This document shows positions 13,175 through 37,624 of a DNA stretch of 37,624 bases, piece by piece (the stretch's first letter is position 1; each line of letters starts with the position of its first letter). Origin of the DNA: Lachnospiraceae bacterium. GTDB lineage: Bacteria > Bacillota > Clostridia > Lachnospirales > Lachnospiraceae. The notes under the pieces are model-generated. The model was not told where the DNA came from. It was given only the letters and a program-made list of their open reading frames with translations, and searched no databases. The stretch lies in NCBI GenBank assembly GCA_017521605.1, contig JAFXCD010000039.1, forward strand, positions 1-37,624, read 5' to 3'. A program made the position numbers and the translations under genes.

Positions 13175-14458
13175 TTACAAATCCATATGATTAAATTTCT
13201 TCTTTCCACCGGAATAATCCGCCACAATATGACCATTTCCGTTCAGTACATATTTATAGGTAACTAAACCTTCTAAACCTACCGGTCCTCTGGCATGGAG
13301 CTTACCCGTGCTGATACCTACCTCCGCTCCAAAACCATAACGGAATCCATCCGCAAATCTTGTAGAACAATTTCTGTAAACTCCTGCACTGTCAATCATC
13401 TGAATAAAGAAATCAGCAATTTCATCATTTTCAGTCAAGATACAATCTGTATGATGAGAACCGAAATAATTAATATGCTGTATTGCTTCATTTACATCGG
13501 ATACCAACTTTATAGAAATCACCATATCATTGTATTCCATGGCAAACTCATCTTCTTTCATGATATCAATATCTGTTCCCAAGATTCCTTTTACTTCTTC
13601 TGTTCCGTTAATCTTCACAGATTCCTCAACAAACATCGCAGACAGAAGCGGCAAAAACCAAGAAGCTATTTCTCTGTGAACAAGCAAGGTTTCTACTGCA
13701 TTACAAGCTGCAGGATAGTTCTTCTTGGCATCCAGAATCACCGATAATGCCAGTTCCTTATCCACTTCCTTATCTACATAAATATGACAAATACCACTGG
13801 AATGTCCCATCACCGGAATCTTTGTATTCTCCATAATGTATCTTACAAACTGATTACTTCCTCTGGGAATCAGTAAATCCACCTCATTATCACACTTTAA
13901 CAATTCGTCTATTTCATTATGCTGCTCTGCCTGTAAAAGGCACTCTGCCGGAAGTCCCGCTTCTATTACTGCATTCTTAATAATTTCAAATAATACCTTA
14001 TTGGTATTGGCTGTTTCCTTACCGCCCTTCAAAATAGCACAATTACCACTCTTTATACAAAGGGAAGCTACCTGAATCATGGCATCCGGACGTGCCTCAA
14101 ATATGACACCGATTACACCAATGGGCACACTGATTTTCTTCAATACAAGTCCCTCATCCAGCTGCCGGTTCATAATAACCTTGCCGATAGGATCTGCCAA
14201 TTCCTTCAATTCCAATACACCGCTAATACTGTCTGCCAGCTTCTTTTCATCATACTTCAGTCTCTTTTGAATGGACTGTGCCACCCCATTGTTAGCAGCA
14301 TATTCCATATCTTTATGGTTTGCTTCAAAAATAACTGTTTTATTCTTCTCCAAAGCACCGGCAATCAAATCCAGTGCATGATTTCTCTGTTCCATGGTAG
14401 AAGCCGCCAATACAGGGGCACTCTTTTTCATCTTAATTGCTTCTGTTCTAATTTCCAT
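13175..14458 (-). CDS. proA: Glutamate-5-semialdehyde dehydrogenase (gamma-glutamyl phosphate reductase)
   Basis: 427 residues, the normal ProA length. Diagnostic stretches include GVIFEARPDAMIQVASLCIK, ILKGGKETANTN, LLIPRGSNQFVRYI, MGHSSGICHIYVD and the catalytic cysteine in YPAACNAVETLLVH near residue 252. ProA reduces gamma-glutamyl phosphate with NADPH in proline synthesis. No proB or proC is nearby. It lies 18 bases after pseG and is co-directional with it, so it is co-transcribed with the glycan genes. The sequence looks like an ordinary intact ProA, so it could be a housekeeping gene captured in the operon or an enzyme recruited to make a glutamate-derived group. TGAGG lies upstream of the ATG. 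Confidence 0.93.
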   Translation of the reverse strand: MEIRTEAIKMKKSAPVLAASTMEQRNHALDLIAGALEKNKTVIFEANHKDMEYAANNGVAQSIQKRLKYDEKKLADSISGVLELKELADPIGKVIMNRQLDEGLVLKKISVPIGVIGVIFEARPDAMIQVASLCIKSGNCAILKGGKETANTNKVLFEIIKNAVIEAGLPAECLLQAEQHNEIDELLKCDNEVDLLIPRGSNQFVRYIMENTKIPVMGHSSGICHIYVDKEVDKELALSVILDAKKNYPAACNAVETLLVHREIASWFLPLLSAMFVEESVKINGTEEVKGILGTDIDIMKEDEFAMEYNDMVISIKLVSDVNEAIQHINYFGSHHTDCILTENDEIADFFIQMIDSAGVYRNCSTRFADGFRYGFGAEVGISTGKLHARGPVGLEGLVTYKYVLNGNGHIVADYSGGKKKFNHMDL

Positions 14459-14476: not shown

Positions 14477-15511
14477 CTATTCATTAAACAGTTTCATTAA
14501 TATTTCTGCAATTCTTACTGCACCTTTACCATCTACTGCCATTCCCATCTTGTCTGCTATTTCCTTACGTATACAATGGGGTTTCATATACTCCAGTCTT
14601 TCCAAAATTCTCTCTATTACTTCCTTCATACCATCTCGGACATCTCCCGCATAGTATAAAGCACCCAAATCATGAAACCGCAACACATTGGTTATCTGAT
14701 TGTCTGCAACGGCATAGGAAATGGCCGGTGTTTTACAGGCACAGGCCTCATACAAAGTAGTCCCTCCGGCAGACACAATACAATCTGCCTGTTTCATAAG
14801 CCACCCCATATTGTTGGCATCTACAATAATCTTCACTCTATCTGATTTCCCGTATGCAGTAAGAATATATTCTTTATCTATGCTTTTACTACCTACTACC
14901 ATAGTGACTTTACAGTTTGAGAAACGTTTATCTGCCAAAATTGCCTGCAGAAACCCTATTCCAAAATGATACCTATCTGCACCACCGGTGGTCACCATTA
15001 TTGTCTGCAGGTTCTCTTCTATCTTTCCTTCTGTTTCGGAAAACTCAGTTCTTAAGGGTACATACAAAGAACCGGTATACAATTCTCCCCCAAAACCCGC
15101 ATACGCCTCTCCTGTCTCACCTATTACATAATTGATAAGCACTTTGCAGGAATATGGAAAGGCCTTTAAATCATCTATGTACACAAGTCGTGTCATCTTA
15201 GAAAGTGTATCCATATACTCCGGTGTTACATAATAAGAATCCAGCAACAAACAACCTATATTCTGTTCCCTGATTAGTTGTTCCATCACAGCTATTTCAC
15301 TATTCAAGTCATCCCATACTGTTCCCAAACAGATGGCTGTAAACCCTCTCTCAAGGATTTTTTCATGCCCTTGATTATCTGCTGTAATAAAACAACATTC
15401 ACCACCAACTGCCCTAACGGCTTCTGCAATGGAAAGGGTTCGCATCAGATGTCCCATAGCTATATGTTCATTTGCATCTACTCGAATATAGATTATCTTA
15501 TTATCTTTCAT
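14477..15511 (-). CDS. pseG: UDP-2,4-diacetamido-2,4,6-trideoxy-beta-L-altropyranose hydrolase
   Basis: 345 residues. The N-terminal IIYIRVDANEHIAMGHLMRT carries the conserved GH pair (His about 21, the catalytic His of PseG), and the C-terminal half has the GT28-like nucleotide-binding loop SAGGTTLYEACACKTPA. PseG removes UDP from UDP-6-deoxy-AltdiNAc, the fourth step to pseudaminic acid. I chose the ATG at 15511, with AAGG six bases upstream, over the ATG at 15526, because the protein then starts MKDNKIIYIRVD, like the family. It overlaps the end of the MaoC gene by 11 bases, which suggests translational coupling. It is somewhat longer than the Campylobacter enzyme but shows no extra C-terminal acetyltransferase domain. 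Confidence 0.9.
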   Translation of the reverse strand: MKDNKIIYIRVDANEHIAMGHLMRTLSIAEAVRAVGGECCFITADNQGHEKILERGFTAICLGTVWDDLNSEIAVMEQLIREQNIGCLLLDSYYVTPEYMDTLSKMTRLVYIDDLKAFPYSCKVLINYVIGETGEAYAGFGGELYTGSLYVPLRTEFSETEGKIEENLQTIMVTTGGADRYHFGIGFLQAILADKRFSNCKVTMVVGSKSIDKEYILTAYGKSDRVKIIVDANNMGWLMKQADCIVSAGGTTLYEACACKTPAISYAVADNQITNVLRFHDLGALYYAGDVRDGMKEVIERILERLEYMKPHCIRKEIADKMGMAVDGKGAVRIAEILMKLFNE

Positions 15512-15902
15512 ACAAAACCTTGGCATTCCCCTCCACCAGACATTTTCCTTCTGTATCCCATACAGAAGTACTTAAATAAATCAAATTACGTTCTTCCTCT
15601 ATTTGTGTTATTTCTACCTGTATTATAACTTTTTGATTTACATATACAGGTTTCTTAAATCTGACATCCTGTCCCAGATAAATGGTTCCGTTACCGGGCA
15701 AAACCGTGCCCAGAATCTTAGAAATCACTCCCATTACAAACATCCCATGTACAATATTATCTCCAAATCTACTTTCCTTAGCATACTCAGGATTTACATG
15801 TAACGGATTATTATCCCCTGTCAGCTTGGCATAAGCAATTACATCCTCCAAGCTGAATATCTTTTCTATCTGAGCCTTCTGTCCTACCACAAAATCAGCC
15901 AT
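15501..15902 (-). CDS. MaoC-like (R)-specific enoyl-CoA hydratase
   Basis: 133 residues, a single hot-dog domain. The hydratase-2 signature is visible as AYAKLTGDNNPLHVNPEYA (catalytic Asp and His) followed by GDNIVHGMFVMGV, and ends with NLIYLSTSVWDTEGKCLVEG. Enzymes of this kind add water to an enoyl-CoA to give an (R)-3-hydroxyacyl-CoA. A TTG at 15920 is also in frame, but the ATG at 15902, with AGGATAGGG upstream, gives a normal family start. It overlaps both neighbours, a hexapeptide acyltransferase upstream and pseG downstream, so it is wired into the pseudaminic acid genes. It may supply (R)-3-hydroxybutyryl-CoA for N-acylation, an acyl group known on nonulosonic acids; this is inference. 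Confidence 0.85.
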   Translation of the reverse strand: MADFVVGQKAQIEKIFSLEDVIAYAKLTGDNNPLHVNPEYAKESRFGDNIVHGMFVMGVISKILGTVLPGNGTIYLGQDVRFKKPVYVNQKVIIQVEITQIEEERNLIYLSTSVWDTEGKCLVEGNAKVLYER

Positions 15903-16467
15903 TTGCCCTATCCTCTTCAAACTGCTTTTCCAACTCTAAAATATCTTTCTTACGATCCTTCATTTTCATAGCCGGAATACCGGAATAAATAGACCATTCT
16001 TCTGTAGTTTTGGTACATAACGCCATACTTCCCACTGCAGTTCCTTCTGCGATTGTCACTCCCGGTAACACCACAGAATTACACCCTACAATGGCATGCT
16101 TCTTTATATGCACGGGTGCGTTAATAGCCCTTGGCTTATACTTCGCCGGCACCATGGGATTGGTCATAGAGGCACCTGTATAATCATCTGAAGTAGCATA
16201 TATGGAACATTTGGATGATAATCCGGAATAATCCTCCATTATAATACCTGCGCTACCACCATACAAACCACAAAACTGAGAAATATGAATATAATCATGC
16301 AACTCCACATTTCCACTAATAATAGTAAAATCATCAATTCTAACATGATTACCGATACGTAATGTCCCGGGGCTGTATAATACCGCATATCTTCCGATTA
16401 AAACATCTTCACCATATTCTGCCAATCCCAGCTGCGCAAGCTCCTCTTCTGACAAAAAATTGCTCAT
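15895..16467 (-). CDS. Left-handed beta-helix (hexapeptide repeat) acyltransferase
   Basis: 190 residues. Isoleucine-patch hexapeptide repeats run from about residue 20 to 160 (DVLIGRYAVLYSPGTLRIG, ISGNVELHDYIHISQF, INAPVHIKKHAIVGCNSVVL), with a His-rich middle and an extended loop ATSDDYTGASMTNP, as in the WbbJ/galactoside acetyltransferase group. The likely reaction is acyl transfer from acyl-CoA to a sugar hydroxyl or amine in the cytoplasm. GGGAGGAA precedes the ATG, which is one base past the pseI stop. The MaoC gene starts inside its 3' end. Because it lies between pseI and pseG, a role in acylating the pseudaminic acid or its precursor is likely. Confidence 0.85.
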   Translation of the reverse strand: MSNFLSEEELAQLGLAEYGEDVLIGRYAVLYSPGTLRIGNHVRIDDFTIISGNVELHDYIHISQFCGLYGGSAGIIMEDYSGLSSKCSIYATSDDYTGASMTNPMVPAKYKPRAINAPVHIKKHAIVGCNSVVLPGVTIAEGTAVGSMALCTKTTEEWSIYSGIPAMKMKDRKKDILELEKQFEEDRANG

Positions 16468-16468
16468 A

Positions 16469-17512
16469 CTATTCCTCCCTTAACATTCCAAAACGCAACG
16501 GTGTTCCTCTCTCTATGTCCACTGTAGCCACCATCCCTAATACCTGTTCATAATACTTCGGTTCCAAACCTTGTCCCGGTCGGATAACCCGTACATTTTT
16601 CTCTGTAAGCTTTTCACCCTTTTTGATATTCTCCACACAAAAGATAGAACGTCTGAAGGCCAGATTATGTTTCTCCTGTTCTGCCGCTCCATATTTAACT
16701 TGCCCTATTGCAACCTCTGCCTGTCGGATATTTCTCACCATTTGTGCAAATTCATCCGGGTTCATGGAAAAACTGGAATCCGGATTCTCAATGGCTCTAT
16801 CCAGGCAAAAATGCTTTTCAATAATACTGGCTCCCAATGCCACTGCCGTAATTGCTCCTACATCCCCCATGGAATGATCCGACAACCCCACAGGCACATT
16901 AAACACTTCTGCCATATTCTGCATGGTTCGTAAATTCATGTCATCTGTTATTGCCGGATAAGCACTGGCACATCTGAGAAGTGCTACCTGTCTGTTTCCA
17001 CACTCATATGCTGCATTTACTGCTGCTTCTATTTCCCCTAAGGTTGCCATACCGGTGGACATAATAATGGGCTTACCCTTGGACGCTATATATTTAATCA
17101 AAGGAATATCAATCAACTCAAAGGAAGCCACCTTATAAAAGCCTACACCGATTTCCTCCAATAAATCTACTGCTGTATTATCAAAAGGAGAGGAGAAAAA
17201 ATCTATCCCCACTTTTTCCGCTTCATCCTTTAAAGCCTGATGCCATTCCCAAGGTGTATACGCCTTTTCATATAACTGATATAAGTTCTCACCTTCCCAT
17301 GTTCCTGTATCTATATGAAAATAAGCATTGTCACAATTCATGGTAATGGTATCCGGTGTATAGGTCTGTATCTTCACACAATCTGCACTGGCTTCTTTTG
17401 CGGCATGAATAATGGCTTTTGCATTTTCTAAGCTACCTGCATGATTTGCAGACATTTCTGCTATGATATATGTGGGATGTCCCGGTCCGATAATTCTATC
17501 TCCTATTTTCAT
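16469..17512 (-). CDS. pseI: Pseudaminic acid synthase
   Basis: 347 residues. The NeuB TIM-barrel domain occupies about 1-280 (YIIAEMSANHAGSLENA, ADCVKIQTYTPDTIT, PIIMSTGMATLGEI, VGLSDHSMGD, IIEKHFCLDR) and ends with ENPDSSFSMNP. The SAF antifreeze-like domain follows at about 290-347. The ANHAGS and ENPDSSFS motifs fit PseI better than the sialic acid synthase NeuB. It condenses 6-deoxy-AltdiNAc with phosphoenolpyruvate to give pseudaminic acid. The start ATGA overlaps the pseF stop by four bases. Confidence 0.93.
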   Translation of the reverse strand: MKIGDRIIGPGHPTYIIAEMSANHAGSLENAKAIIHAAKEASADCVKIQTYTPDTITMNCDNAYFHIDTGTWEGENLYQLYEKAYTPWEWHQALKDEAEKVGIDFFSSPFDNTAVDLLEEIGVGFYKVASFELIDIPLIKYIASKGKPIIMSTGMATLGEIEAAVNAAYECGNRQVALLRCASAYPAITDDMNLRTMQNMAEVFNVPVGLSDHSMGDVGAITAVALGASIIEKHFCLDRAIENPDSSFSMNPDEFAQMVRNIRQAEVAIGQVKYGAAEQEKHNLAFRRSIFCVENIKKGEKLTEKNVRVIRPGQGLEPKYYEQVLGMVATVDIERGTPLRFGMLREE

Positions 17513-18219
17513 GCATTTTCTCCCTTTTCATTTCTTTCCACCATCAAGCGGTACTTCATTTCTGCAATCTGCCAGTCCGTCAGATTATCAATATCCTGTA
17601 CTTCTAATTCTGTACAAACCAAGGCATAGGTTTTATCCGTATATACCTTTTTGCTCTCCATAAATCGCGAAGCCTGCATAATATAAAACTGCCCGCAATC
17701 ATGATACATGGGCTCTAAATCCTGAGAACGTTTTAACATATTTTCCGGCCACTTATATGCCAGATTCCCTTCATTTATAACAAAGCTTCTCTGTGGAGGA
17801 AAACCATACCTCACTACAGGAACCAAAGAATCCGAGTCGCTTTCACGTATAAGCTCCATAGCCTTACTTAACTTTTCAGCTGTCACAAAAGGAGCTGTAG
17901 GATAAATACAGCACATGTATTCAAATTCTTGCCCCCTCTTTTCATATTCTTCCAAAACTTCTGTCAGTACATCCACAGTAGTTGCATAATCATCAGATGT
18001 CTTCTCACTTCTCATAAAAGGAACCTTTGCACCACAACTTTTTGCAATCTTGGCAATCTCTTCATCATCCGTGGAAACCATAACTTCATCAAAACAGCCT
18101 GACTCCAATGCCGCTTCAATAGAGTATGCTATTATAGGCTTTCCCAAAAAAGGTTTTATATTCTTACCCGGAATACGCTTACTGCCTCCCCTGGCTGTAA
18201 TAATTGCCACATTGCTCAT
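17509..18219 (-). CDS. pseF: Pseudaminic acid cytidylyltransferase
   Basis: 236 residues. The N-terminal AIITARGGSKRIPGKNIKPF is the nucleotide-binding loop of CMP-sugar synthetases, followed by VSTDDEEIAKIA, CCIYPTAPFVTAEKL and the PseF-like YHDCGQFYIM and VQDIDNLTDWQIAEMKYRLM. It activates pseudaminic acid with CTP to CMP-pseudaminic acid. AAGGAAGT precedes the ATG. It is flanked by the ABC transporter upstream and by pseI, with a four-base overlap, downstream. Confidence 0.93.
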   Translation of the reverse strand: MSNVAIITARGGSKRIPGKNIKPFLGKPIIAYSIEAALESGCFDEVMVSTDDEEIAKIAKSCGAKVPFMRSEKTSDDYATTVDVLTEVLEEYEKRGQEFEYMCCIYPTAPFVTAEKLSKAMELIRESDSDSLVPVVRYGFPPQRSFVINEGNLAYKWPENMLKRSQDLEPMYHDCGQFYIMQASRFMESKKVYTDKTYALVCTELEVQDIDNLTDWQIAEMKYRLMVERNEKGENA

Positions 18220-21055: not shown

Positions 21056-22126
21056 CTATAAATTATCATTATATCTGTGGACAGTCGGGTCTTCATAATT
21101 ATCCATAAAGTCCGGGCCTAAACGCACCTTCTCTTTAGCAAAGGATAAGCCTGACAGCTCCGTAAACACAGCCACCACCTTCTTAAACATCAACCCCGGA
21201 ATAAAATTCATTAATTCCATAGGTGCTCTACGTTCAATAACAATATTCTCCGGGAAAACACTTTTATAATCCAGAAAATCGTTGGGATGTGGCTTAAATA
21301 CAATGGTTCCTTCCCCTTCGTACTGTGCAACTATATCCTTGAAAATCTTTTCTCTTGTCTCCATATCACAAAGAGGTTCTGTTAATACAAGTAATACATC
21401 TCCTTGTGTTACCAATCGTTGCAGCTCGTCGCAATCCTCTATAAACACCTTCAAAAGAAGTTGTTTTTGTTCTTCCGATAAATGGTCAACCAACTTCTGT
21501 CTGGGCACTTCTACGTATTTTTTATGGGTATACTTTAAGCAGGATATATCGTTTACTTCCATATCCAGACAGTACTTTCCATAGCCGTTCTGAATAAATA
21601 TCAAATTCATAGAAGATAACCAGACTTTTAACTTGAAAAAACGTTGGTTACGATATCTTGCTGCATCACAGTGCTTCAAGGTATTTAACCCATCCTCCAC
21701 TGCATGATAATATATCTTTTTATAATTCAGATAATAACCGATTGGATCGGAATCACAATATACATATATATCTTTATATTCCTTAAAATCCACCGGAATA
21801 TAGGGTTCCTGAAGCTTTCCAAACAACTTGGTATATTTCATACGCCCCAGCATAATCTTAATCTGGTTACCGGTCATATTCATATAGGGCGCCAGTTGCG
21901 GAAAGAATACATCCCTCTTTTCATCAAACATAATCACCATATGAAATATACCACTTTCTTCAATACGACTCTTAATCGTTTCAAAAGCAGTTGTCATTGT
22001 ACTCAAAATGATATCCGCTTTTCCTCTTTCTTCATCGGGAAGATTCAATTCCTTCAAAAAGCTTACATATACATGATAGTAGGTATGACAAACATACACT
22101 CTAGATATCGCTGGTGCTTTCTTCAT
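21056..22126 (-). CDS. GT52/sialyltransferase-like glycosyltransferase, candidate pseudaminic acid transferase
   Basis: 356 residues, no membrane segments. It opens VYVCHTYYHVYVSFLKELN, as GT52-type enzymes do, and has the HP motif of bacterial sialyltransferases in TIVFKPHPNDF near residues 277-283, followed by VAVFTELSGLSFAKE. The HP histidine is a conserved functional residue in these families and binds the CMP moiety. Because the operon makes CMP-pseudaminic acid, this is the best candidate for its transferase. The start overlaps the end of the DUF4910 gene by 26 bases; an internal GTG close to VYVCH is an alternative start. A teichoic-acid-type or uncharacterised transferase remains possible. 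Confidence 0.75.
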   Translation of the reverse strand: MKKAPAISRVYVCHTYYHVYVSFLKELNLPDEERGKADIILSTMTTAFETIKSRIEESGIFHMVIMFDEKRDVFFPQLAPYMNMTGNQIKIMLGRMKYTKLFGKLQEPYIPVDFKEYKDIYVYCDSDPIGYYLNYKKIYYHAVEDGLNTLKHCDAARYRNQRFFKLKVWLSSMNLIFIQNGYGKYCLDMEVNDISCLKYTHKKYVEVPRQKLVDHLSEEQKQLLLKVFIEDCDELQRLVTQGDVLLVLTEPLCDMETREKIFKDIVAQYEGEGTIVFKPHPNDFLDYKSVFPENIVIERRAPMELMNFIPGLMFKKVVAVFTELSGLSFAKEKVRLGPDFMDNYEDPTVHRYNDNL

Positions 22127-23390
22127 CTAATAATCCACTTTCCTTTAACTTGTCAATGTGATGAATCAATTCCCAAACCGGCTCTCCGATTTTATTACTG
22201 ATATCAAGCAAGTCTCTCTTTCCATCCGCATAAGCAATGAAATTTGTTAATTTACGAACCTCTGCATAAATCCCCTTTCTGCTTACAGTAGGATAGAGAC
22301 CCCTTTTCCCCAACTGGGGTTCACATAGACACTTAATCCTATAATATTTGTTATACTCTAATGCCATAATCACCTTCTGCATTACATCATAGGCTCCCTG
22401 CAAGCCTTCCGGTGAAATCACGCTCATATCATCTGCAGAAGTATGGTATTCCGGATATTCCCCGTATTTTGTACGGCAGAATCCGCATACCGGCAAATCC
22501 ACTCCCGGGGCATTATATTGCCGTTCATCTGAACCACGCTCCAAAAAGCTGTATCTCTTATACTCCGGATCCACATGCTTTAAAACATTCTGCATCACCT
22601 TATCCGCCAGAGTATCTGCTTCTCTGGTTTCTATGTAGGAGTAAGCCCGATTATCTCCTACACAGCTTAATACAAAGCCTGCTATCATATTCTCCTTCAG
22701 CATCTGCAGATTTTTTGACAAATATGTAATGGAACCTATGGTTTCCGGCACAATCACCAAACGGTATGAGAGGTTTCTGTCCAGAGTTTTCAACCAACGC
22801 ATCAGCTGTGTTGCCAAAACCGGTCCGGACAATTCATTATTTGCCATGGAAGGGTGGCAGATATAGGTTGACAATAACACTTCCTTTTTACTTTTACCCG
22901 GCAAATACAATTCTGCATAATTTAACACGCCGTCAAACAAACGGCTCTTTATCACCATATGATACTTACCCGGCTTTAGGGAATCCCGCATATTACGGGA
23001 CATACAAAAACCGCTTCTTGGCACATAATAGGATGTTACATATGGTATTACATCCGGTTGTCCTTCTTCCACCCGAATGTATGTATATAACTCTTCTAAA
23101 TCCACATATTCATCCAAAGGCATGGAATACCCCATCACATGCAGATTATTTTGGGCATAATCAATAATTCTGTTGCCCTCTTCATCCTCTATATACCCTT
23201 CCGTAATCTCCCACTCTTTGGGTACTTCCCAATCAAAAACCTGAGTTTTGCTGGGCACCTCACAAATTTCCAATTCAGGAATTTGCTCTTTGATTATTTG
23301 TAAGCTTTTTCTTACTCCTGCACCGGTCAGACTTCTTCCTATAGGAAATAGTCTTTCCGCCAAATCATACATCCATTTTCCGGCTTCCAT
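22101..23390 (-). CDS. DUF4910 / M28-like zinc aminopeptidase homologue
   Basis: 429 residues. After an N-terminal RLFPIGRSLTGAGVR, typical of the family, the peptidase core has TYICHPSMANNELSGP (putative zinc ligands near residues 179-186), a Glu in VIVPETIGSITYLS and a His in EYHTSADDMSV near 315. The last 70 residues look like a winged-helix domain (LLDISNKIGEPVWELIHHID). Family members recur in surface polysaccharide clusters, but their substrate is not settled as far as I know. Its ATG abuts the AAC(3) stop codon (TAA then ATG), so the two are coupled. It may trim or edit an aminoacyl or peptidyl group on the sugar; that is inference. Confidence 0.85.
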   Translation of the reverse strand: MEAGKWMYDLAERLFPIGRSLTGAGVRKSLQIIKEQIPELEICEVPSKTQVFDWEVPKEWEITEGYIEDEEGNRIIDYAQNNLHVMGYSMPLDEYVDLEELYTYIRVEEGQPDVIPYVTSYYVPRSGFCMSRNMRDSLKPGKYHMVIKSRLFDGVLNYAELYLPGKSKKEVLLSTYICHPSMANNELSGPVLATQLMRWLKTLDRNLSYRLVIVPETIGSITYLSKNLQMLKENMIAGFVLSCVGDNRAYSYIETREADTLADKVMQNVLKHVDPEYKRYSFLERGSDERQYNAPGVDLPVCGFCRTKYGEYPEYHTSADDMSVISPEGLQGAYDVMQKVIMALEYNKYYRIKCLCEPQLGKRGLYPTVSRKGIYAEVRKLTNFIAYADGKRDLLDISNKIGEPVWELIHHIDKLKESGLLDEESTSDI

Positions 23391-24182
23391 TTATTCATCC
23401 TGACCTTTATATGTATACATATTTCTACATTTATTGCATTTGATTTCCACCTCTTCTACCTGTGCCAGTTCCTTCAGTAGCACTGTAGATACCGGTTCCC
23501 CGTTAATTTCCTGTGTATTAAGCACCTTCAAATCCCTCAGAATTCTTGAGAATACTGTCTGGGGCTCCACATATTGAGGATCCATGTCATAATCCCGCAC
23601 ATTCATGGAATATGTTTTCATACTTGTATTTCCGTCTTCATCGGTATAAGGTGCAGTAAAATCCTTAATATATCGATAAGGCACTCCTACCACCTGTTCA
23701 TTGTGTAGCTTAGATGTTAATCCCTTGGTATTCTCCAAACCTATAATCAGCGCTTTACCTTCCTTTTCCTGCATATAGGAAAAAGGTGTTCCATCTCCCC
23801 AGGCATCCTTATTTTCCATGGCACAGAGTTCTTCACAGCCCTTGCCCCATACAGCAAAGGAATAGATAGGGTGCTTGGTACGCTTAAAATCAGCTCTTTT
23901 CAGTGCCACATTTCCCAATGCTCCTGTTTGACTTTTACTTTTCTTATAATCAAATCCTTTACCGGAACAAAAGTCCCAATTGAAGGTAGGCACCAATAAC
24001 GTCCCCTCCGGACCGATTCTTTCCATCAACTTTTCCAATAGTATATTTCCATCATACACATCTTTTTCCTTCAAAGCATTTAGCGCCAATTTTGTAACAT
24101 CCGAAACCAGGTAGATAATATCACCTTTTTCAATCCGCTCTATTCTATCTATGATATTTTCCCACTTGATATAATCTCCCAC
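23391..24182 (-). CDS. AAC(3)-family N-acyltransferase
   Basis: 263 residues. It shows the aminoglycoside 3-N-acetyltransferase fold signatures EGTLLVPTFNWDF, KHPIYSFAVWGKG, DAWGDGTPFSYMQ and the conserved His/Glu stretch SKLHNEQVVGVPYRY near residues 155-170. A short CNKC pair sits at the C-terminus. In polysaccharide loci, family members are thought to acylate amino sugars rather than antibiotics, so resistance is not implied. It begins with GTG, seven bases after GGAGG. It lies between the adenylation enzyme and the DUF4910 gene, so the acyl donor could be an activated amino acid; this is inference. Confidence 0.85.
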   Translation of the reverse strand: MGDYIKWENIIDRIERIEKGDIIYLVSDVTKLALNALKEKDVYDGNILLEKLMERIGPEGTLLVPTFNWDFCSGKGFDYKKSKSQTGALGNVALKRADFKRTKHPIYSFAVWGKGCEELCAMENKDAWGDGTPFSYMQEKEGKALIIGLENTKGLTSKLHNEQVVGVPYRYIKDFTAPYTDEDGNTSMKTYSMNVRDYDMDPQYVEPQTVFSRILRDLKVLNTQEINGEPVSTVLLKELAQVEEVEIKCNKCRNMYTYKGQDE

Positions 24183-24208
24183 AAGTTTTCCTCCAATACT
24201 AACCTAAA

Positions 24209-25720
24209 TTACCCATTCTGATATTTTTTCTTCAAAGTAACTCTGTCGATTTTACCGTTTGCGGTAAACGGCATCTTATCAATGTGTATAATATTATTGG
24301 GTACCATATATCTTGGCAATCTGTCCTTTAACAACTGTGCCAATGTCTTCTCATCAATATTACCCACATAATAAAGTACAATACGTCCCTTTATTTCATC
24401 ATAAATACAGCAGGATATCTTGATTTCCTCCAAAAGATTCACATTGACTTCTATCTCGCCCAATTCAATTCTGTGTCCCATATGTTTAATTTGATAATCC
24501 TTACGGGATACAAAAATCAATTCTCCGTATTCATTATATTTGCCCAAATCACCGGTTTTATAAATCAATTCCGGATAAGCTTTATTTAACGGATTCTGCA
24601 CAAACACTTCATTGGTTTTTTCCCAGTTATTATAATATCCCAGAGTCACCGAAGTACCCCTGATACAAATCTCACCCACTTCACCCGAAGGTGCTTGCTT
24701 TCCATCCTCTGTCAAAAGCAATATCTCAGTATTCTTAAAGGGTCTTCCTATAGGAATCACTTCATCCACCGCAAATTCTCTATTTACCTTATAGTAACAG
24801 CACATACCGGTGCCCTCAGTAGGACCATAGAGGTTTGTAAACTTTGCCTCCGGCAATACTTCCTTCCAACAATTAAATTGCTTAATAGGAAATACTTCAC
24901 TACCAAAAGCAATAACCTTCAAAAACTTCGGTTTAATAGTTTTGAATGTACCAAATGCCGATATCATGGTTAATGCTGATACTACCCAGCAAATAGTGTT
25001 AATCCGATGCTCATTTAAAAATTCCACCAGTTTCACCGGAAACATAAATAAGCTTCTGGGAATCAAATACGTAGTGGCACCAAACTTAAGTGTAGGATAA
25101 AGCTCCTTTAAGCAGGCATCAAAATACAATGGAGTCTGATTACCAAACACAGTATCCTCATTAAACTCCAATGTTTCCGACAATTGCTCTATATAATCAA
25201 TTACCGATCTGTGACATGCTGCCACTCCCTTGGGAACACCTGTGGAACCGGATGTAAATACAATATAAATAGGGTCCGTATCAATCGAAGAATCATATGC
25301 CTTATTTAACAATTCCTTATTTATTGGTGTATTCTTAATTTCATCATATACTACAATCTCACCTTCAAAGGTAAACTTCTTTGCAATTTCCTTGGTTTCC
25401 TCATCACATATGATGATTTCCGGCTGTACATTTTCCAGAATTAACTGTATTCTTGTGCCCGGCATCTCTTCATCAATAGGTACATAAAAATTCCCGCCAC
25501 GAATTACTCCAAAAAAAGCCGTGACTTCTTTTGGGTGCTTATTCATAAATACCACTACCGGTTTACGATAAATATTCTTTTCCAACAAATAGGTACCAAT
25601 GGCATTACTTTGGTCAAATACTTCTGAAAATGTCATATGGTCCACACCATTGGAAAAAGCCACCTTGTCCGGTTTCTTTAGCACAATATTATTCAAGTAA
25701 TCCAATACATGATTCTGCAT
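24209..25720 (-). CDS. Stand-alone amino-acid adenylation enzyme (DltA/NRPS A-domain-like)
   Basis: 503 residues, the length of DltA. The core motifs are in order: A3 FTSGSTGVPKGV near residue 153, A4-like FDACLKELYPTLKFGA with the Asp that normally holds the substrate amino group, A5 NLYGPTEGTG near 295, A7 YKTGDLGKYNEYGEL, A8 GHRIELGEIEVN and A10 FTANGKIDR near the end with the catalytic Lys. It should form an aminoacyl-AMP. No carrier protein, thioesterase or DltB/DltD partner is in the window, so where the aminoacyl group goes is open. AGAGG precedes the ATG. It lies between the Asp/Glu racemase and the AAC(3) gene. Side-chain specificity cannot be read reliably by eye. Confidence 0.88.
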   Translation of the reverse strand: MQNHVLDYLNNIVLKKPDKVAFSNGVDHMTFSEVFDQSNAIGTYLLEKNIYRKPVVVFMNKHPKEVTAFFGVIRGGNFYVPIDEEMPGTRIQLILENVQPEIIICDEETKEIAKKFTFEGEIVVYDEIKNTPINKELLNKAYDSSIDTDPIYIVFTSGSTGVPKGVAACHRSVIDYIEQLSETLEFNEDTVFGNQTPLYFDACLKELYPTLKFGATTYLIPRSLFMFPVKLVEFLNEHRINTICWVVSALTMISAFGTFKTIKPKFLKVIAFGSEVFPIKQFNCWKEVLPEAKFTNLYGPTEGTGMCCYYKVNREFAVDEVIPIGRPFKNTEILLLTEDGKQAPSGEVGEICIRGTSVTLGYYNNWEKTNEVFVQNPLNKAYPELIYKTGDLGKYNEYGELIFVSRKDYQIKHMGHRIELGEIEVNVNLLEEIKISCCIYDEIKGRIVLYYVGNIDEKTLAQLLKDRLPRYMVPNNIIHIDKMPFTANGKIDRVTLKKKYQNG

Positions 25721-25762
25721 AACTCTTAACCTCTTTATATAAATATAGCTGCTTCAAACCAA

Positions 25763-26473
25763 CTAAAACAGCTCATCATATTCTGTTTTTAATTTCCCAC
25801 AGGTAAGTACTGCCTTGCGAGCCAATACCTCCATAACATCCAAATAGGGATATCCTATAGAAAAATCCCTTTTAATCAAAGAAAGCTCCGTGCAACCCAA
25901 AATAATCACCTGGGCACCACGCATCAGCAGTTCACGACCGATTTCATCAAACATCTGCTTGTCCAGTTTTTTGCCGGCCTTTACATTCTCGTAAATCAGG
26001 TGCATCACCTTCTTCTGCTTATCCTTTGAGGGAACGATAACTTCCATCCCTAAGCTTTCCAATTCCTTCTGAAAAATTCCGCTTTCCATGGTACCATCTG
26101 TAGCCATAATGCCTACCTTGGTAACCCCATGTTTCTCTAAATATCTCGCAGTTTCTTCTATAGCATTGATAACGGGTACATTGATAGCTTCCGTCAATTC
26201 TTTTTGAAAATAATGTGCTGTGATGCACGGAATTGCCAGCACTTCTGCTCCCTGAGCCACCAGTCCGTTTCCGGTCTTTATCATTTCTGTAACGGGAGTT
26301 TCCTGACTCTGCCCCAAAATATATCTGGTTCTGTCCGGAATCTGGGGCTTACTGTGTATTACTATCTCTATATGCTCCTGATCTATGTCCGCATCAGTCA
26401 TCTGGGTAACCAATTGCAAAAAATATGCTGTTGCCATGGGTCCCAGACCACCAATTATTCCTAATACGCTCAT
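25763..26473 (-). CDS. Aspartate/glutamate racemase family protein
   Basis: 236 residues. The N-terminus VLGIIGGLGPMATAYFLQL is diagnostic of the aspartate racemase branch, and both catalytic cysteines are present: AIPCITAH near residue 82 and ILGCTELSL near residue 193. It should interconvert L- and D-Asp or Glu in a PLP-independent way. GAGGAT precedes the ATG. It is the first gene behind a consensus promoter inside the operon and directly precedes the amino-acid adenylation enzyme. This suggests that a D-amino acid is made for activation. Sequence alone does not separate Asp from Glu. Confidence 0.9.
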   Translation of the reverse strand: MSVLGIIGGLGPMATAYFLQLVTQMTDADIDQEHIEIVIHSKPQIPDRTRYILGQSQETPVTEMIKTGNGLVAQGAEVLAIPCITAHYFQKELTEAINVPVINAIEETARYLEKHGVTKVGIMATDGTMESGIFQKELESLGMEVIVPSKDKQKKVMHLIYENVKAGKKLDKQMFDEIGRELLMRGAQVIILGCTELSLIKRDFSIGYPYLDVMEVLARKAVLTCGKLKTEYDELF

Positions 26474-26523
26474 TTTGTATCCTCATTTAACCTCTATTGT
26501 ATCAGCCAAACTATCTACTCGCA

Positions 26524-26551
26524 ATTATACCACGTTGATTTTCCATGTCAA
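26524..26551 (-). promoter_or_regulatory. Consensus internal sigma-A promoter before the racemase gene
   Basis: On the minus strand a perfect TTGACA (26546-26551) and a perfect TATAAT (26524-26529) are separated by 16 bases. The start site would be near 26517, about 45 bases before the racemase ATG. It falls in a 93-base gap, one of the few in the operon. It is the strongest-looking promoter in the window, and no terminator lies before it, so it would add to read-through from the pseB promoter. Confidence 0.8.
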
Positions 26552-30390: not shown

Positions 30391-30915
30391 TTACTTATTA
30401 ATGATTCCCATTAATACGATATCCCGATATCTTCCATCCACATATACATCATCATGGAGATAGGCTTCTTTTACAAAGCCTGCTTTTTCATAACTGCGAA
30501 TCGCCTGTGTGTTCTCAGCATATACCCGCAAAAACAATCGATGTAGCTCCAATTCCTCAAAACAATACTTTATCATAAGCTTTGCCGCGGAAGTACCATA
30601 ACCTTTCCCCCTAGCATCATCTTCTCCTATGAAAATACCATATTCTGCTTTATGATGGGTGGTATCTATATCACGAATATACACACTGCCCACTGCTTTA
30701 TCCGTGGCAGTCTCACAAATCATCAGCTGTACTACCTTTCCGGTGTCTATCATGGTTCTTATCCAGTTTTCATGACTCTCCCTGGTAAACAAAGCCTGAT
30801 AGATAAAATTCTTTCTGACTCCGTCACTGTTTCTCCAATTCACAATCCGGTCTGTATCATCTGCTGTCATTAAACGCAGATAAATACCAGCCACCTCATC
30901 CTCATATCTCTTCAT
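30391..30915 (-). CDS. GNAT acetyltransferase, candidate PseH
   Basis: 174 residues of the RimJ/RimL-type GNAT fold. It has a WRN motif (RIVNWRNSDGVRKNF) as in PseH, then AEYGIFIGEDDARGKGYG (the acetyl-CoA-binding loop RGKGYG) and ENTQAIRSYEKAGFVKEAYL. PseH acetylates the 4-amino group of UDP-4-amino-4,6-dideoxy-AltNAc, the third step to pseudaminic acid and the only one otherwise missing here. Its start overlaps the preceding GT2 by 14 bases, with GGAG eight bases upstream. The assignment rests on fold, length and position close to pseB and pseC; another sugar N-acetyltransferase is possible. Confidence 0.72.
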   Translation of the reverse strand: MKRYEDEVAGIYLRLMTADDTDRIVNWRNSDGVRKNFIYQALFTRESHENWIRTMIDTGKVVQLMICETATDKAVGSVYIRDIDTTHHKAEYGIFIGEDDARGKGYGTSAAKLMIKYCFEELELHRLFLRVYAENTQAIRSYEKAGFVKEAYLHDDVYVDGRYRDIVLMGIINK

Positions 30916-31873: not shown

Positions 31874-33067
31874 CTATTTACGATAGTATGCTACCAGCTT
31901 CTTAACAGCAGCTATAACATCCTCCACATCACTGTCTGTCATAGCATAAAACAAAGGTATACTCAAAATCTCTTCATATAATTTCTCAGCCTGTGGGCAA
32001 ATTCCTTTCTCGTAACCCAGCCTCTCATAATAGGAATGCCAATAAACAGGAATATAATGTACCTGAGTACCAATATTCTCTGCATGCAGTGCATCAAAAA
32101 ACTCACGCCTGTTACAATTCAGCAATTCTGTATTCAAACGCAGGATATATAAATGTCTCGTGGTATCCGATTCTTTGATTTCTTCCTGTACTATGATTTC
32201 CGGCATTTGACGAAACTCTTCGTCATACCTCTTTACAATCTCTTTTCTTCTTACGGAGAAAGCCGGAAGCTTATCCAGCTGACTGATTAGCAAAGCTGCC
32301 TGTATATCCGTCATACGATAGTTGTATCCCAGTTCTACCTGCTCATAATACCAGCCTGCATCCGAAGGATTGCACATCTCCTCCATCCTGCGGGTTATAC
32401 CATGGGTAGGATATAATCGAAGCTTGCGATACAATTCTTCATCATTAGTCGTTACTGCACCACCTTCTCCGCTGGTAACAGTCTTTACCGGATGGAAACT
32501 AAAGGTAGTCATATCTGCTATACTGCCCACCCCTTTACCATTGTACTTCGTACCGATGGAATGCGCCGCATCCTCAATTAATATCAAATCATATTCTTTA
32601 CATATTGCTCGGATCTCATCCAGCTCTACTGCCTGACCGGTAAAATCCACTGCCACTATAGCTTTGGTCTTATCTGTAATCTTTTCCCGGATGGAAGCCG
32701 GGTCTATATTGTAGGTCTTGGGATTGATATCCGCAAACACCGGCGTACCGCCACAGTAGAGTACACAATTGGCTGATGCTGCAAAGGTAATGGGACTGAC
32801 AATCACTTCATCTCCGGGGCCAATCCCTGCTGCCATAGCAGCTATATGAAGAGCTGCCGTGCCGTTACTGACCGCCACAGCATACTTTGCACCGGTAACT
32901 TCACAAAGCTTTTTCTCAAGCTCTGTAATCTTAGGTCCACAGGTTAAAGCCGGGCTTTTTAAGGTTTCCACCACTGCTGCAATATCGGCTTCATCAATAT
33001 ATTGTCTTCCGTATCCGATGACTGTATCACGCACAGGCACACCACCATTTTTAGCCAATCTTTCCAT
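31874..33067 (-). CDS. pseC: UDP-4-amino-4,6-dideoxy-N-acetyl-beta-L-altrosamine transaminase
   Basis: 397 residues of the DegT/DnrJ/EryC1/StrS family. GYGRQYIDEADIAAVVETL and SPALTCGPKITELEKKL near the start, DEVIVSPITFAASANC, IEDAAHSIGTKYNG and the PLP lysine in FSFHPVKTVTSGEGG (about residue 193) match PseC rather than WecE. It aminates the 4-keto sugar made by PseB. TTGGAGG precedes the ATG. It follows pseB by 32 bases, the standard pairing. Confidence 0.93.
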   Translation of the reverse strand: MERLAKNGGVPVRDTVIGYGRQYIDEADIAAVVETLKSPALTCGPKITELEKKLCEVTGAKYAVAVSNGTAALHIAAMAAGIGPGDEVIVSPITFAASANCVLYCGGTPVFADINPKTYNIDPASIREKITDKTKAIVAVDFTGQAVELDEIRAICKEYDLILIEDAAHSIGTKYNGKGVGSIADMTTFSFHPVKTVTSGEGGAVTTNDEELYRKLRLYPTHGITRRMEEMCNPSDAGWYYEQVELGYNYRMTDIQAALLISQLDKLPAFSVRRKEIVKRYDEEFRQMPEIIVQEEIKESDTTRHLYILRLNTELLNCNRREFFDALHAENIGTQVHYIPVYWHSYYERLGYEKGICPQAEKLYEEILSIPLFYAMTDSDVEDVIAAVKKLVAYYRK

Positions 33068-33099: not shown

Positions 33100-34095
33100 T
33101 TATTTTTCTAAATCTACAGTCTTAATCAACTCACGAATCTCTTCCACAGTTAACCATTCTGTATTATTACCTGAGCTGTAAGAGAATCCTTCCGGAACCT
33201 TCTTGCCGGTAGGAATTGCCCTACGGCTTTCGCTCCAAACCATCTGAGGATATACTATAAAATGCTTATCGTACTCATAAGTAGTCATGGAATCCTCTAC
33301 CGTTACCATAATCTCATGCAACTTTTCACCTTCACGAATACCTATCTCGGGCATCTTACATCCGGGAAGCATTGCTTCTGCCAAATCAGTAATCTTAAAA
33401 GAAGGAATCTTGGAAATAAAGGTTTCTCCACCCTTAGCTTCTTCCAAAGCCTTGATTACCAGCTCTACACCCTGACGCAAGCTAATCCAGAAACGGGTCA
33501 TACGATAATCAGTGATGGGAAGCTCTGTTCCTCCATTCTTTATAATATTGTGAAATAACGGAATGATTGAACCACGGCTGCCTGCTACGTTACCATAGCG
33601 AACAATGGAAAAATTAATATCCTTATCTCCTGCATAGGCATTGGCTGCAATAAACAATTTATCGGATACCAATTTGGTTCCACCATATAAGTTTACAGGG
33701 TTTACTGCTTTATCTGTGGACAAGGCTACTACCTTCTTTACATTAGAATCCAATGCTGCATCAATGATATTCTGTGCACCATGAATATTTGTCTTTATCG
33801 CTTCAGACGGATTGTATTCACATGCCGGCACCTGCTTCATAGCAGCTGCATGAATTACATAATCCACACCATCAAATGCACGTGTCAGTCTTTCCTTATC
33901 TCTTACATCGCCGATAAAGAAACGCAATTTACTTTTATACTCCTTAAACTCATTCTGCATAATATACTGCTTAAACTCATCTCTGGAATAAATAATGATT
34001 TTCTTTGGATTGTAGTTCTCCAAAACATACTTGGTAAATGCTTTACCAAAGCTGCCTGTTCCACCTGTAATTAATATTGCTTTATCGTTTAACAT
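33100..34095 (-). CDS. pseB: UDP-N-acetylglucosamine 4,6-dehydratase (inverting)
   Basis: 331 residues, an extended SDR. The NADP-binding loop is LITGGTGSFGKAF (residues 9-20), followed by YSRDEFKQYIMQ, FIGDVRDKERL, HAAAMKQVPACEYNP and ALSTDKAVNPVNLYGGTK, which carries the catalytic region (Thr-Asp-Lys and Tyr/Lys near 135-141). RMTRFWISL and REGEKLHEIM are shared with C. jejuni PseB. It makes UDP-2-acetamido-2,6-dideoxy-arabino-hexos-4-ulose, the committed step to pseudaminic acid. AGGAG precedes the ATG. It is the first gene of the long operon, with its own promoter. Confidence 0.95.
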   Translation of the reverse strand: MLNDKAILITGGTGSFGKAFTKYVLENYNPKKIIIYSRDEFKQYIMQNEFKEYKSKLRFFIGDVRDKERLTRAFDGVDYVIHAAAMKQVPACEYNPSEAIKTNIHGAQNIIDAALDSNVKKVVALSTDKAVNPVNLYGGTKLVSDKLFIAANAYAGDKDINFSIVRYGNVAGSRGSIIPLFHNIIKNGGTELPITDYRMTRFWISLRQGVELVIKALEEAKGGETFISKIPSFKITDLAEAMLPGCKMPEIGIREGEKLHEIMVTVEDSMTTYEYDKHFIVYPQMVWSESRRAIPTGKKVPEGFSYSSGNNTEWLTVEEIRELIKTVDLEK

Positions 34096-35750: not shown

Positions 35751-36878
35751 CTAACGATAGAACTTATTAATTAACTCTACTATTTTTTCAATTTCATCTT
35801 TTTTAAGACCATAATACATAGGTAGTCTCAATAAACGTTCGCTCTCTTTTGTTGTATATCTGTCTTCTCCATAGAAACGCCCATATTTAATTCCGGCAGG
35901 TGCCGAATGTAGAGGTACATAATGAAATACAGACAATATGTCATGGCTCTTCAAGTAATCAATTAATCGTGTTCTTTCTTCAACATCCTTTGCTTTCAAA
36001 TAGAACATATGAGCATTATGAATACAATCCTTTGGTATATACGGGAGCTCTATCTTTCCTGCATTCTGTAATTCCACTAAACCTTCTTTATAGCTTTGCC
36101 ACGAATCCAATCTGTTGTTATTTATTTCCTCTGCCAACTCTAACTGGGCATACAGATATGCAGCATTCAAATCACTTGGCAAATAAGACGAACCCTGTTC
36201 AACCCAGGTATATTTATCAATCTGTCCACGGAAAAACTTGCTACGATTAGTTCCCTTTTCTCGAATAATCTCGGCAGGTTCAACATCCTTTTTATCCCTA
36301 ATCAGCAATGCTCCTCCTTCTCCCATGGAATAATTCTTTGTTTCATGAAAACTATAACAACCAAAATCACCTATAGTTCCTAATGCCTTGCCTTTATACG
36401 AGCTCATAACACCTTGAGCTGCATCTTCCACAACTTTCAGACCGTGTCTACTCGCTATATCCATTATGGTATCCATTTCACATGAAACTCCTGCATAATG
36501 CACCGGAACAATCACTTTCGTTTTAGGTGTAATAGCTTCTTCTATTAATGACTCATCAATGTTCATTGTATCCGGTCTGATATCAACAAAAACTATTTTA
36601 GCCCCTCTCAACACAAAAGCATCAGCTGTTGAAACAAAGGTAAATGATGGCATAATAACCTCATCTCCGGGACGAACATCGGATAATAAAGCTGCCATTT
36701 CCAACGCATGTGTACAAGATGTTGTCAATAATGCTTTCTCTGTTTTTGTATTATTCTCAATCCATTCGTTACATTTTTTAGTAAAGCACCCATCTCCACA
36801 AATCTTACCTTCTGAAATGGCAATTTTCATATACTCTAACTCTTTCCCTGTAAATGGGGGAACATTAAATTTTATCAT
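35751..36878 (-). CDS. wecE: dTDP-4-amino-4,6-dideoxygalactose transaminase (copy 2)
   Basis: 375 residues, a second WecE/RffA homologue: SCTHALEMAALLSDVRPGDE, FVDIRPDTMNIDE, PVHYAGVSCEM, FHETKNYSMGEGG with the PLP lysine near residue 180, and REKGTNRSKFFRG. It is the same length as copy 1 and clearly paralogous (75 of the first 100 residues identical), but its DNA is more AT-rich. The ATG at 36878 has GGAGAG five bases upstream; a GTG one codon earlier is also in frame. It follows rmlB by 15 bases, the natural order for making dTDP-Fuc4N. Confidence 0.93.
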   Translation of the reverse strand: MIKFNVPPFTGKELEYMKIAISEGKICGDGCFTKKCNEWIENNTKTEKALLTTSCTHALEMAALLSDVRPGDEVIMPSFTFVSTADAFVLRGAKIVFVDIRPDTMNIDESLIEEAITPKTKVIVPVHYAGVSCEMDTIMDIASRHGLKVVEDAAQGVMSSYKGKALGTIGDFGCYSFHETKNYSMGEGGALLIRDKKDVEPAEIIREKGTNRSKFFRGQIDKYTWVEQGSSYLPSDLNAAYLYAQLELAEEINNNRLDSWQSYKEGLVELQNAGKIELPYIPKDCIHNAHMFYLKAKDVEERTRLIDYLKSHDILSVFHYVPLHSAPAGIKYGRFYGEDRYTTKESERLLRLPMYYGLKKDEIEKIVELINKFYR

Positions 36879-36893
36879 CACTTCTCTCCGCTC

Positions 36894-37624
36894 TTACTTT
36901 TCGTACATATCAGTATAGTATTTCTGATAGTCACCACTGGTTACATTCTTCATCCATTCCTCATTCTCAAAGAACCAGCCAATTGTTCTCCTGATACCTT
37001 CCTTAAACATGGTCTCCGGATACCAGCCGATTTCTGACTTAATCTTATCCGGTGCAATGGCATAACGACGGTCATGACCCTTACGGTCTTCCACGTAAGT
37101 AATCAAATCCTTGCTTACCAATGCCTTTCTGGGATCTCCCTCCGGCAACATCTCCTGCAGGGTCTCTATGATAATGTTAATAATTTCTATATTCTGCTTT
37201 TCATTATGTCCACCCACATTGTAGGTTTCAAACAATCTGCCCTGTTCCTGTACCATGTCGATTGCCTTGGCATGGTCTTCTACAAACAACCAGTCACGTA
37301 CATTCTTACCATCGCCGTATACAGGAAGCTTCTTGCCTTGTAATGCATTGTTAATAATCAGTGGTATCAGCTTCTCAGGGAACTGATAAGGACCATAATT
37401 ATTGGAACAGTTGGTAATATTGGCAGGGAACTTATAAGTATCCATATAGGCCTTTACCAGCATGTCTGAGCTGGCCTTACTTGCAGAGTAAGGACTGTGA
37501 GGATCATAAGGGGTGGTCTCATAGAAGAATGCATTTTCATCATCCGGCAAGGAACCATATACCTCATCTGTGGAAACATGGAGAAATTTCTTTCCCTCCT
37601 TAAAGCTTCCATCCTCAAGTTCCC
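36894..37624 (-). CDS. rmlB: dTDP-glucose 4,6-dehydratase, C-terminal part (runs off right edge)
   Basis: About 243 codons of the 3' end are visible. The fragment includes KFLHVSTDEVYGSL, the SDR active-site stretch PHSPYSASKASSDMLV (Tyr and Lys), NCSNNYGPYQFPEKLIPLII, DGKNVRDWLFVEDHAKAID and DRKGHDRRYAIAPDKIKSEI, all diagnostic of RmlB. It provides the 4-keto substrate for wecE directly downstream. Its start lies beyond the right edge, and no overlap with the left-edge rmlB fragment exists for comparison. Confidence 0.95.
   Translation of the reverse strand, partial: ELEDGSFKEGKKFLHVSTDEVYGSLPDDENAFFYETTPYDPHSPYSASKASSDMLVKAYMDTYKFPANITNCSNNYGPYQFPEKLIPLIINNALQGKKLPVYGDGKNVRDWLFVEDHAKAIDMVQEQGRLFETYNVGGHNEKQNIEIINIIIETLQEMLPEGDPRKALVSKDLITYVEDRKGHDRRYAIAPDKIKSEIGWYPETMFKEGIRRTIGWFFENEEWMKNVTSGDYQKYYTDMYEK

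Follow-up and report, generated by a model that had tools for sequence, protein, structure and literature searches.

Four contiguous genes, for an amino acid racemase, a stand-alone adenylation enzyme, an AAC(3)-like N-acyltransferase and a DUF4910 protein, lie among pseudaminic acid genes in contig JAFXCD010000039.1 of a Lachnospiraceae bacterium (assembly GCA_017521605.1), whose 37,624 nucleotides are referred to below as the window. We propose that two systems meet in this unit: half of a dlt-like aminoacylation system, the half that loads the carrier, and an N-acyl module for nonulosonates. The racemase-adenylation pair would load a carrier protein encoded on another contig (C38), from which an MBOAT protein would pass the aminoacyl group to an envelope polymer, while AAC(3) and DUF4910 would act beside it. 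We assign this reading a probability of roughly 0.4. Its basis lies in features of the sequence itself, namely the protein families, the catalytic residues of racemase and adenylation enzyme, the clade and pocket code of the latter, the local absence of a carrier, and the carrier and MBOAT genes of C38.

A preliminary description of this DNA had placed the four genes and a GT52 gene on the minus strand, where we found them, together with a promoter-like site:

21056..22126, minus strand: GT52 glycosyltransferase, near the AAC(3)/DUF4910 module in several relatives too
22101..23390, minus strand: DUF4910-DUF2172-HTH_47 protein (profile match to PF16254, 339 bits)
23391..24182, minus strand: AAC(3)/Antibiotic_NAT-like protein with a GTG start (PF02522, 76.9 bits against a cut-off of 25)
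24209..25720, minus strand: stand-alone amino acid adenylation enzyme (TIGR01733, 318.3 bits against a cut-off of 317.4)
25763..26473, minus strand: amino acid racemase of the Asp/Glu/cysteate type (TIGR00035, 230 bits against a cut-off of 93.1)
26524..26551, minus strand: sigma-70-type promoter-like site, TTGACA-16-TATAAT with TG before the -10 (consensus match only)

From racemase through adenylation enzyme and AAC(3) to DUF4910 the genes are separated by 42, 26 and 0 bases, and the DUF4910 gene overlaps the GT52 gene by 26 bases. The promoter-like site lies about 50 bases upstream of the racemase start, agrees with the consensus at 12 of 12 positions and is the sole site with more than 10 of 12 matches between positions 19900 and 28000. 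Its first base, 26551, is the coordinate at which the preliminary description had ended the unit.

The racemase-adenylation pair evidently derives from a dlt-like operon. As had been described, the adenylation enzyme carries the amino-group-binding Asp (D201) and the A10 Lys (K490), and the racemase has both catalytic Cys residues (C83 and C194), which are kept in 35 of 35 aligned rows, the window's among them; Arg48 and Lys165 of the racemase are kept as well. Of 299 genomes from the window's bacterial family, 128 have relatives of the adenylation enzyme at E ≤ 1e-60. The 31 closest loci (L033-L063; 57-75% identity; the window itself excluded) make up our dlt-type set, and most of them represent another operon, common in this bacterial family and encoding a transglutaminase-like membrane protein, a racemase, the adenylation enzyme, a carrier of 76 amino acids, an MBOAT protein, an SGNH-like protein and a lipoprotein (for example L034:5198-12575). 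Clustering recovered the racemase in 24 of these 31 loci (27 by phmmer count), MBOAT and the SGNH-like/lipoprotein group in 28 each, and the transglutaminase-like protein in 27; the carrier was counted in 19, a figure that omits seven further loci with an antisense frame called near the carrier position. A quick tree of 71 rows, 69 of them different, places the window enzyme inside the dlt-like clade (a set of 29 rows, support 99), nearest to the enzymes of genome G440 and of congeners. Of the 31 dlt-type enzymes, 21 share the window enzyme's pocket code, DAKSIFLGMK, and all 31 keep the Lys at its third position.

The position of the pair in the genome is consistent with this origin. In genome G184 the stretch of a pse locus from memA to the GT52 gene holds a complete dlt-like operon and, after it, a PseC gene in reverse orientation; the window unit occupies the same place. 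The window genome contains one adenylation gene at E ≤ 1e-60 (five of eight candidates scored). Both genes of the pair have intact frames and keep all catalytic residues that were checked. In comparison with congeners the proportion of nonsynonymous differences (pN) is well below that of synonymous differences (pS), although such ratios reflect the entire period of divergence rather than the interval after the pair's move.

An acidic D-amino acid is the substrate to which both members of the pair point. Lys at the third code position is known from Glu-activating codes, and the best solved-structure match of the racemase is the aspartate racemase 1jfl (192 bits). The racemase also exceeds the cysteate racemase cut-off (214 versus 190), so that Asp, although most likely, is not firmly assignable, and Glu or cysteate are possible. 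The suggestion that the unit makes and activates a D-amino acid is upheld in part, in that an amino-acid-activating enzyme with Asp201 accompanies an acid-type racemase, but the pair has its source in a dlt-like operon. For that operon, the presence of its own Asp/Glu-type racemase predicts envelope aminoacylation by an acidic D-amino acid rather than by D-alanine. We found no description of a dlt-like operon with its own acid-type racemase in the open-access literature searched.

Two carrier profiles run against the 372 stop-to-stop frames of the window found no carrier (best E 3), as the preliminary description had reported, and an overlooked carrier in the window was rejected on this ground; controls scored 107-120 bits, these carriers or their twins having been used in profile building. 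The guess that a carrier might be encoded elsewhere proved apt. One dedicated carrier was found in the genome, on contig C38; it is a member of the dlt-like clade (E 2e-37) and reaches 76% identity with dlt-type carriers. Downstream of it follow genes for a lipoprotein, a DltB-like MBOAT and a DHHW/AlgX-like protein, and the 20 kb of C38 examined showed no adenylation gene. The second profile, built on carriers of AAC(3) loci, returned from the genome the same C38 carrier, two acyl carrier proteins (ACPs), which we read as fatty-acid ACPs from their neighbours, and one match at E 0.7. PF00550 alone did not report the C38 carrier, which was found by the A1 profile.

From these features we infer the substrate, the loading in trans and the acceptor. 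The racemase would make the D form of the acidic amino acid, and the adenylation enzyme would activate it and load the small C38 carrier in trans. The C38 MBOAT and its DHHW/AlgX-like partner would then transfer the aminoacyl group to a hydroxyl group on some glycan or polymer of the envelope. Beside this route, the AAC(3)-like protein and DUF4910 would act on pseudaminic acid as an N-acyl exchange pair of the Cj1295 type, which may or may not tap the C38 carrier.

Several observations weigh against this proposal. The same-strand run with AAC(3) and DUF4910 under its own promoter-like site suits a joint task of the four genes, and a second racemase of the family is encoded in the window genome on contig C99. 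The C38 proteins reach neither the DltB nor the DltC equivalog cut-off (154.6 versus 375 and 26.5 versus 68), and the C38 MBOAT is only 30% identical to dlt-type MBOAT. As this MBOAT is not of the dlt type, the C38 set may be another system; four further MBOAT genes are present in the genome. The congener genome G414 (L224, G414:C68) has a dlt-type carrier beside an MBOAT gene and no adenylation gene at E ≤ 1e-30, which weakens loading in trans as a rule. The genome is a fragmented draft of 125 contigs, 92.9% complete with 6% estimated contamination, in which C38 could be foreign or other genes could be missing. Because of this contamination, and because the window is one entire contig (C35), the linkage between C35 and C38 is not proven.

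The other half of the unit, AAC(3) and DUF4910, appears as a conserved surface-glycan module in other genomes. A scan of 84,980 species genomes yielded 186 AAC(3) relatives, of which the best 80 were kept. Within 6 kb of the AAC(3) match itself, DUF4910 was found in 49 of these 80 loci and a carrier or ACP in 64, against 12 loci with an adenylation enzyme and seven with an FkbH-like protein. These counts are lower bounds, since only the best 80 relatives were kept and many contigs are short. Of those 12 loci, 11 also have a carrier within 6 kb (in L189/L268 it lies beyond), and 21 of the 80 contain a pse gene anywhere in the locus. No racemase was found within 6 kb of AAC(3) in any of the best 80 of 186, and the idea of the four genes as one long-standing unit was rejected on this count. 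A lack of conserved co-occurrence with nonulosonate genes, which the preliminary description had named as a refutation, was not what the scan showed for the class: AAC(3), mostly with DUF4910, recurs beside an adenylation enzyme in surface-glycan loci, several of them with pse genes, but the full four-gene set was seen in the window only. As carriers and ACPs neighbour the AAC(3) genes of relatives, they point to carrier-bound donors rather than acetyl-coenzyme A (acetyl-CoA) for these AAC(3)-like proteins.

Closer relatives reveal variation in the loader. In a sample of the bacterial family the AAC(3) gene occurs in 13 of 397 genomes, the window's included, and genomes G049, G176 and G190 combine DUF4910, AAC(3), adenylation enzyme and carrier with nonulosonate genes. 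Within the window's genus, AAC(3) (E ≤ 1e-40) occurs in 12 of 138 genomes, again counting the window's and taking G422/G437 (L113) as one genome. Eight of the other 11 have an adenylation enzyme within 6 kb, where about 0.09 genomes would be expected by chance, assuming two adenylation genes per 3-Mb genome and independent genomes. A carrier or ACP is present in 10 of the 11, anywhere in the fetched locus, with the L267 carrier counted from the same locus as L180. DUF4910, adenylation enzyme, carrier, AAC(3) and GT52 occur together in L230, L231, L265, L267, L268 and L270. In L271 (G512:C15) an FkbH-like protein and an ACP replace adenylation enzyme and carrier in the same glycan locus, and in L269, cut by a contig end, only the carrier is visible. 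The nearest relative, L113, has AAC(3)-DUF4910 in a pse locus that lacks racemase, local loader and carrier; its genome yielded a single adenylation gene (E ≤ 1e-30) and a single carrier gene (E ≤ 0.001), both in its dlt-like operon, an arrangement that suits one carrier shared by both routes. The adenylation codes of the eight genus loci are DAPSIFYYAK (five), DAPSVFMYAK (one) and DNLSVFLDAK (two). As these differ from the window's code, the amino acid activated there should differ too. Among the genome-scan loci, 14 adenylation genes keep the Asp (of 25 rows over 440 amino acids), and their codes are DAPSIFYYAK, DNL-type or DIQSIFVVNK, none being that of the window.

An FkbH-like protein with an ACP is a glyceryl-type loader. 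For the module as a class, a loader would charge a carrier, DUF4910 would free the amine and AAC(3) would transfer the acyl group, a scheme suggested because the role of Cj1295 fits loci with an FkbH-ACP or an adenylation-carrier pair beside AAC(3)/DUF4910.

The AAC(3)-like protein of the window departs from its family at one residue. Its TxPhiHPhiAE motif reads TSKLHNE, with Leu at the position of the His that is reported to be catalytic and completely conserved in AAC(3) enzymes, for which acetyl-CoA is the donor (PMC8956665). In our alignment the His is present in 83 of 86 rows (75 of 78 distinct) and the Glu in 86 of 86; repeats likewise reduce the 49 DUF4910 rows to 44, and all 35 racemase rows are distinct. 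The three rows without His, from the window, L113 and L155 (a Spirochaetia bacterium), all have Lys-Leu there. Transfer to an amino sugar by AAC(3), as had been suggested, is weakened by this replacement, while membership in PF02522 stands. The predicted structure is confident (AlphaFold2 predicted local distance difference test score 93.2, predicted template modelling score 0.90). Between the window and L113, pN is 0.19 for both AAC(3) and DUF4910, with pS of 0.82 and 0.88. Both proteins are thus under strong purifying selection, and the His-less variant does not appear to have decayed. Within the genus, loss of the His coincides exactly with the absence of a carrier from the locus (window and L113), and His and carrier are both present in 10 of 10 other genus loci. 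Since window and L113 are close kin, this association of His loss with carrier absence counts as one event. L155 is His-less as well, yet an ACP and a ligase adjoin, unlike in window and L113; there (L155:9995-12499) the Lys-Leu AAC(3) gene is followed directly by an ACP and an adenosine monophosphate (AMP) ligase whose pocket lacks the amino-group Asp.

For DUF4910, the preliminary description had proposed editing by an M28-like protein, which is unlikely. At the positions of the M28 catalytic Asp and Glu, mapped through PMC4000134, stand Ser181, a Ser in 47 of 49 rows, and Pro215, invariant in all 49, and an editing aminopeptidase was rejected on the absence of the catalytic pair. All 49 rows retain His179, Glu216, Asp288 and His316. 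The window protein matches CA_C2195 of known structure (3k9t) with 351 bits; where that structure has Asp195 as a Zn ligand, the window protein and all 49 rows (44 distinct) have Asn. Parts of one study in Campylobacter jejuni describe Cj1295 as required for 5-N-dimethylglyceroyl (2,3-di-O-methylglyceroyl) pseudaminic acid, put it in the same "aminopeptidase-like" family as the Clostridium acetobutylicum protein, and propose that it takes off the 5-acetyl group before substitution (PMC3068675). In the portions of the literature covered, DUF4910 proteins have a structure and one genetic phenotype, and a reaction is not demonstrated.

The acceptor is the uncertain step. Pocket code, clade and the MBOAT gene near the carrier favour an envelope polymer, and the operon favours pseudaminic acid. 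An alternative only somewhat less probable than the proposed envelope route is a corrected form of the preliminary description's reading: the C38 carrier would again be loaded in trans by the adenylation enzyme, but DUF4910 would take an N-acetyl group off pseudaminic acid or its precursor, and AAC(3) would put the D-aminoacyl group in that position. Such a route would fit the composition of the window, which apart from carrier and racemase is that of the modules in L230, L231, L265, L267, L268 and L270, and the loader replacement in the congener L271, as well as the requirement for the DUF4910 kin Cj1295 in making an N-acyl variant of pseudaminic acid (PMC3068675, in part). The L113 genome, likewise with AAC(3)-DUF4910 lacking a local loader and carrier and with one adenylation gene and one carrier elsewhere, and the strong purifying selection on both proteins between window and L113 are in keeping with it too. 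It has to contend, however, with Leu at the catalytic His of AAC(3), with a locus that holds no carrier, with a pocket code that belongs to the dlt-like clade and is unlike those of all 14 Asp-keeping scan-locus enzymes, and with the sister locus L113, which keeps AAC(3)-DUF4910 in the absence of racemase and adenylation enzyme. Both routes may also be combined, although we consider this unlikely: one carrier charged with an acidic D-amino acid would supply an MBOAT that O-aminoacylates an envelope polymer as well as the His-less AAC(3) that, with DUF4910, N-aminoacylates pseudaminic acid, and the loader would be swapped like a cassette across the genus (several adenylation codes, FkbH), changing the acyl group of the sugar.

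Two further explanations assign the pair either no task or no carrier. That racemase and adenylation enzyme are a stranded fragment of a dlt-like operon with no present role is in line with their sharing the position of the whole operon in G184 and with the missing carrier, MBOAT and SGNH-like genes at the window locus, but we regard it as improbable given the intact frames, the kept catalytic residues, the perfect promoter-like site and a pN well below pS. Still more improbable in our judgement is a route that uses no carrier, in which the adenylate reacts directly with an amino sugar or an aminoacyl-CoA is made for AAC(3). It would account for the lack of a carrier in the window and agrees with the use of acetyl-CoA by AAC(3) enzymes (PMC8956665, in part), whereas a carrier or ACP accompanies AAC(3) in 64 of the best 80 of 186 loci, the adenylation enzyme is of the carrier-loading kind (TIGR01733, DltA-like) and a carrier of the matching clade is present on C38.

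As had been described, the unit is embedded among pseudaminic acid genes; the set is complete, with PseB, PseC, PseF, PseG, PseH and PseI all over their NCBIfam cut-offs:

33100..34095, minus strand: PseB
31874..33067, minus strand: PseC
30391..30915, minus strand: PseH (GNAT), barely over its cut-off (93.7 versus 93.1)
17509..18219, minus strand: PseF
16469..17512, minus strand: PseI
14477..15526, minus strand: PseG

Further genes on the minus strand adjoin this set. A MaoC-like hydratase and a hexapeptide transferase (15501-16467), between PseG and PseI, may be a further source of acyl groups for pseudaminic acid. PseG and a GtrII-like gene flank the gene for ProA (glutamate-5-semialdehyde dehydrogenase; 13175-14458; 511 bits against a cut-off of 289). 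The sister locus L113, over the 20.8 kb available, showed no ProA-like gene. At 35751-37550, WecE (dTDP-4-amino-4,6-dideoxygalactose transaminase, 649 bits) and a neighbour of 218 amino acids point to a second amino sugar in the locus, which would be another possible acceptor.

The loci compared here tie DUF4910 to interchangeable acyl loaders with a carrier, so that the acyl group of the sugar would be predictable from the adjoining loader. The module and the dlt-like operon are both relevant to the ways in which gut commensals vary their surface and give it charge. Nonulosonic acids with aminoacyl groups are already known, as are N-acyl variants of pseudaminic acid that depend on DUF4910. 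The version of the module with adenylation enzyme and carrier, the swap of loaders within a genus and the His-less AAC(3) variant were not found in the open-access literature searched.

Several known systems resemble parts of the unit. Alanyl-bearing legionaminic acid (Leg5Ac7AcAla) occurs in Vibrio vulnificus (PMC7371886) and N-acetylglutamine-substituted pseudaminic acid in C. jejuni (PMC3068675); both are aminoacyl nonulosonic acids, and no enzyme set of the window's kind was found in the available parts of these accounts. The preliminary description had known of no enzyme set of this composition, which holds for adenylation enzyme and racemase; for C. acetobutylicum, however, the part of PMC4000134 at hand tabulates DUF4910-DUF2172-HTH_47 (CA_C2195), a nonulosonic acid synthase, N-acetyltransferase genes and an acyl carrier gene. 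CA_C2195 has, like the window protein, both M28 catalytic residues replaced; it differs in its Zn ligand Asp195, and its table contains neither adenylation enzyme nor racemase. The Antibiotic_NAT/AAC(3) acetyltransferases share their Pfam family and the motif Thr and Glu with the window protein, but not the catalytic His (PMC8956665, in part).

The Cj1295 system of C. jejuni comes close in its arrangement, with a DUF4910-kin "aminopeptidase-like" polysaccharide protein of 435 amino acids in a pseudaminic acid locus, which also lists an N-acetyltransferase gene, Cj1296/7, reminiscent of the AAC(3) neighbour in the window (PMC3068675, in part); the kinship of Cj1295 to the window protein is taken from the literature and not from a comparison with the Cj1295 sequence. 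In the sections available, that system adds a 2,3-di-O-methylglyceroyl group, and neither racemase nor adenylation enzyme was seen described, whereas the window loader activates an amino acid. Judged as a module of this type, the window has DUF4910 in a nonulosonate locus and the AAC(3)-like gene directly beside it (gap 0). By a measure of our own, a loader with its carrier in the locus, it has the loader but not the carrier, which 10 of 11 other genus loci have. In the Dlt system (DltA-D; D-alanylation of teichoic acid), the parent operon finds its counterpart for the DltA-type enzyme, the small carrier with a DS motif, MBOAT and the SGNH-like partner. The scores fall well short of the equivalog cut-offs for DltA, DltB and DltC (286.6 versus 559.85 for the window adenylation enzyme against DltA). 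The pocket code of DltA, D L M S F C T V A K, is unlike that of the window enzyme, and, in contrast to the Dlt system, the dlt-like operon brings its own racemase.

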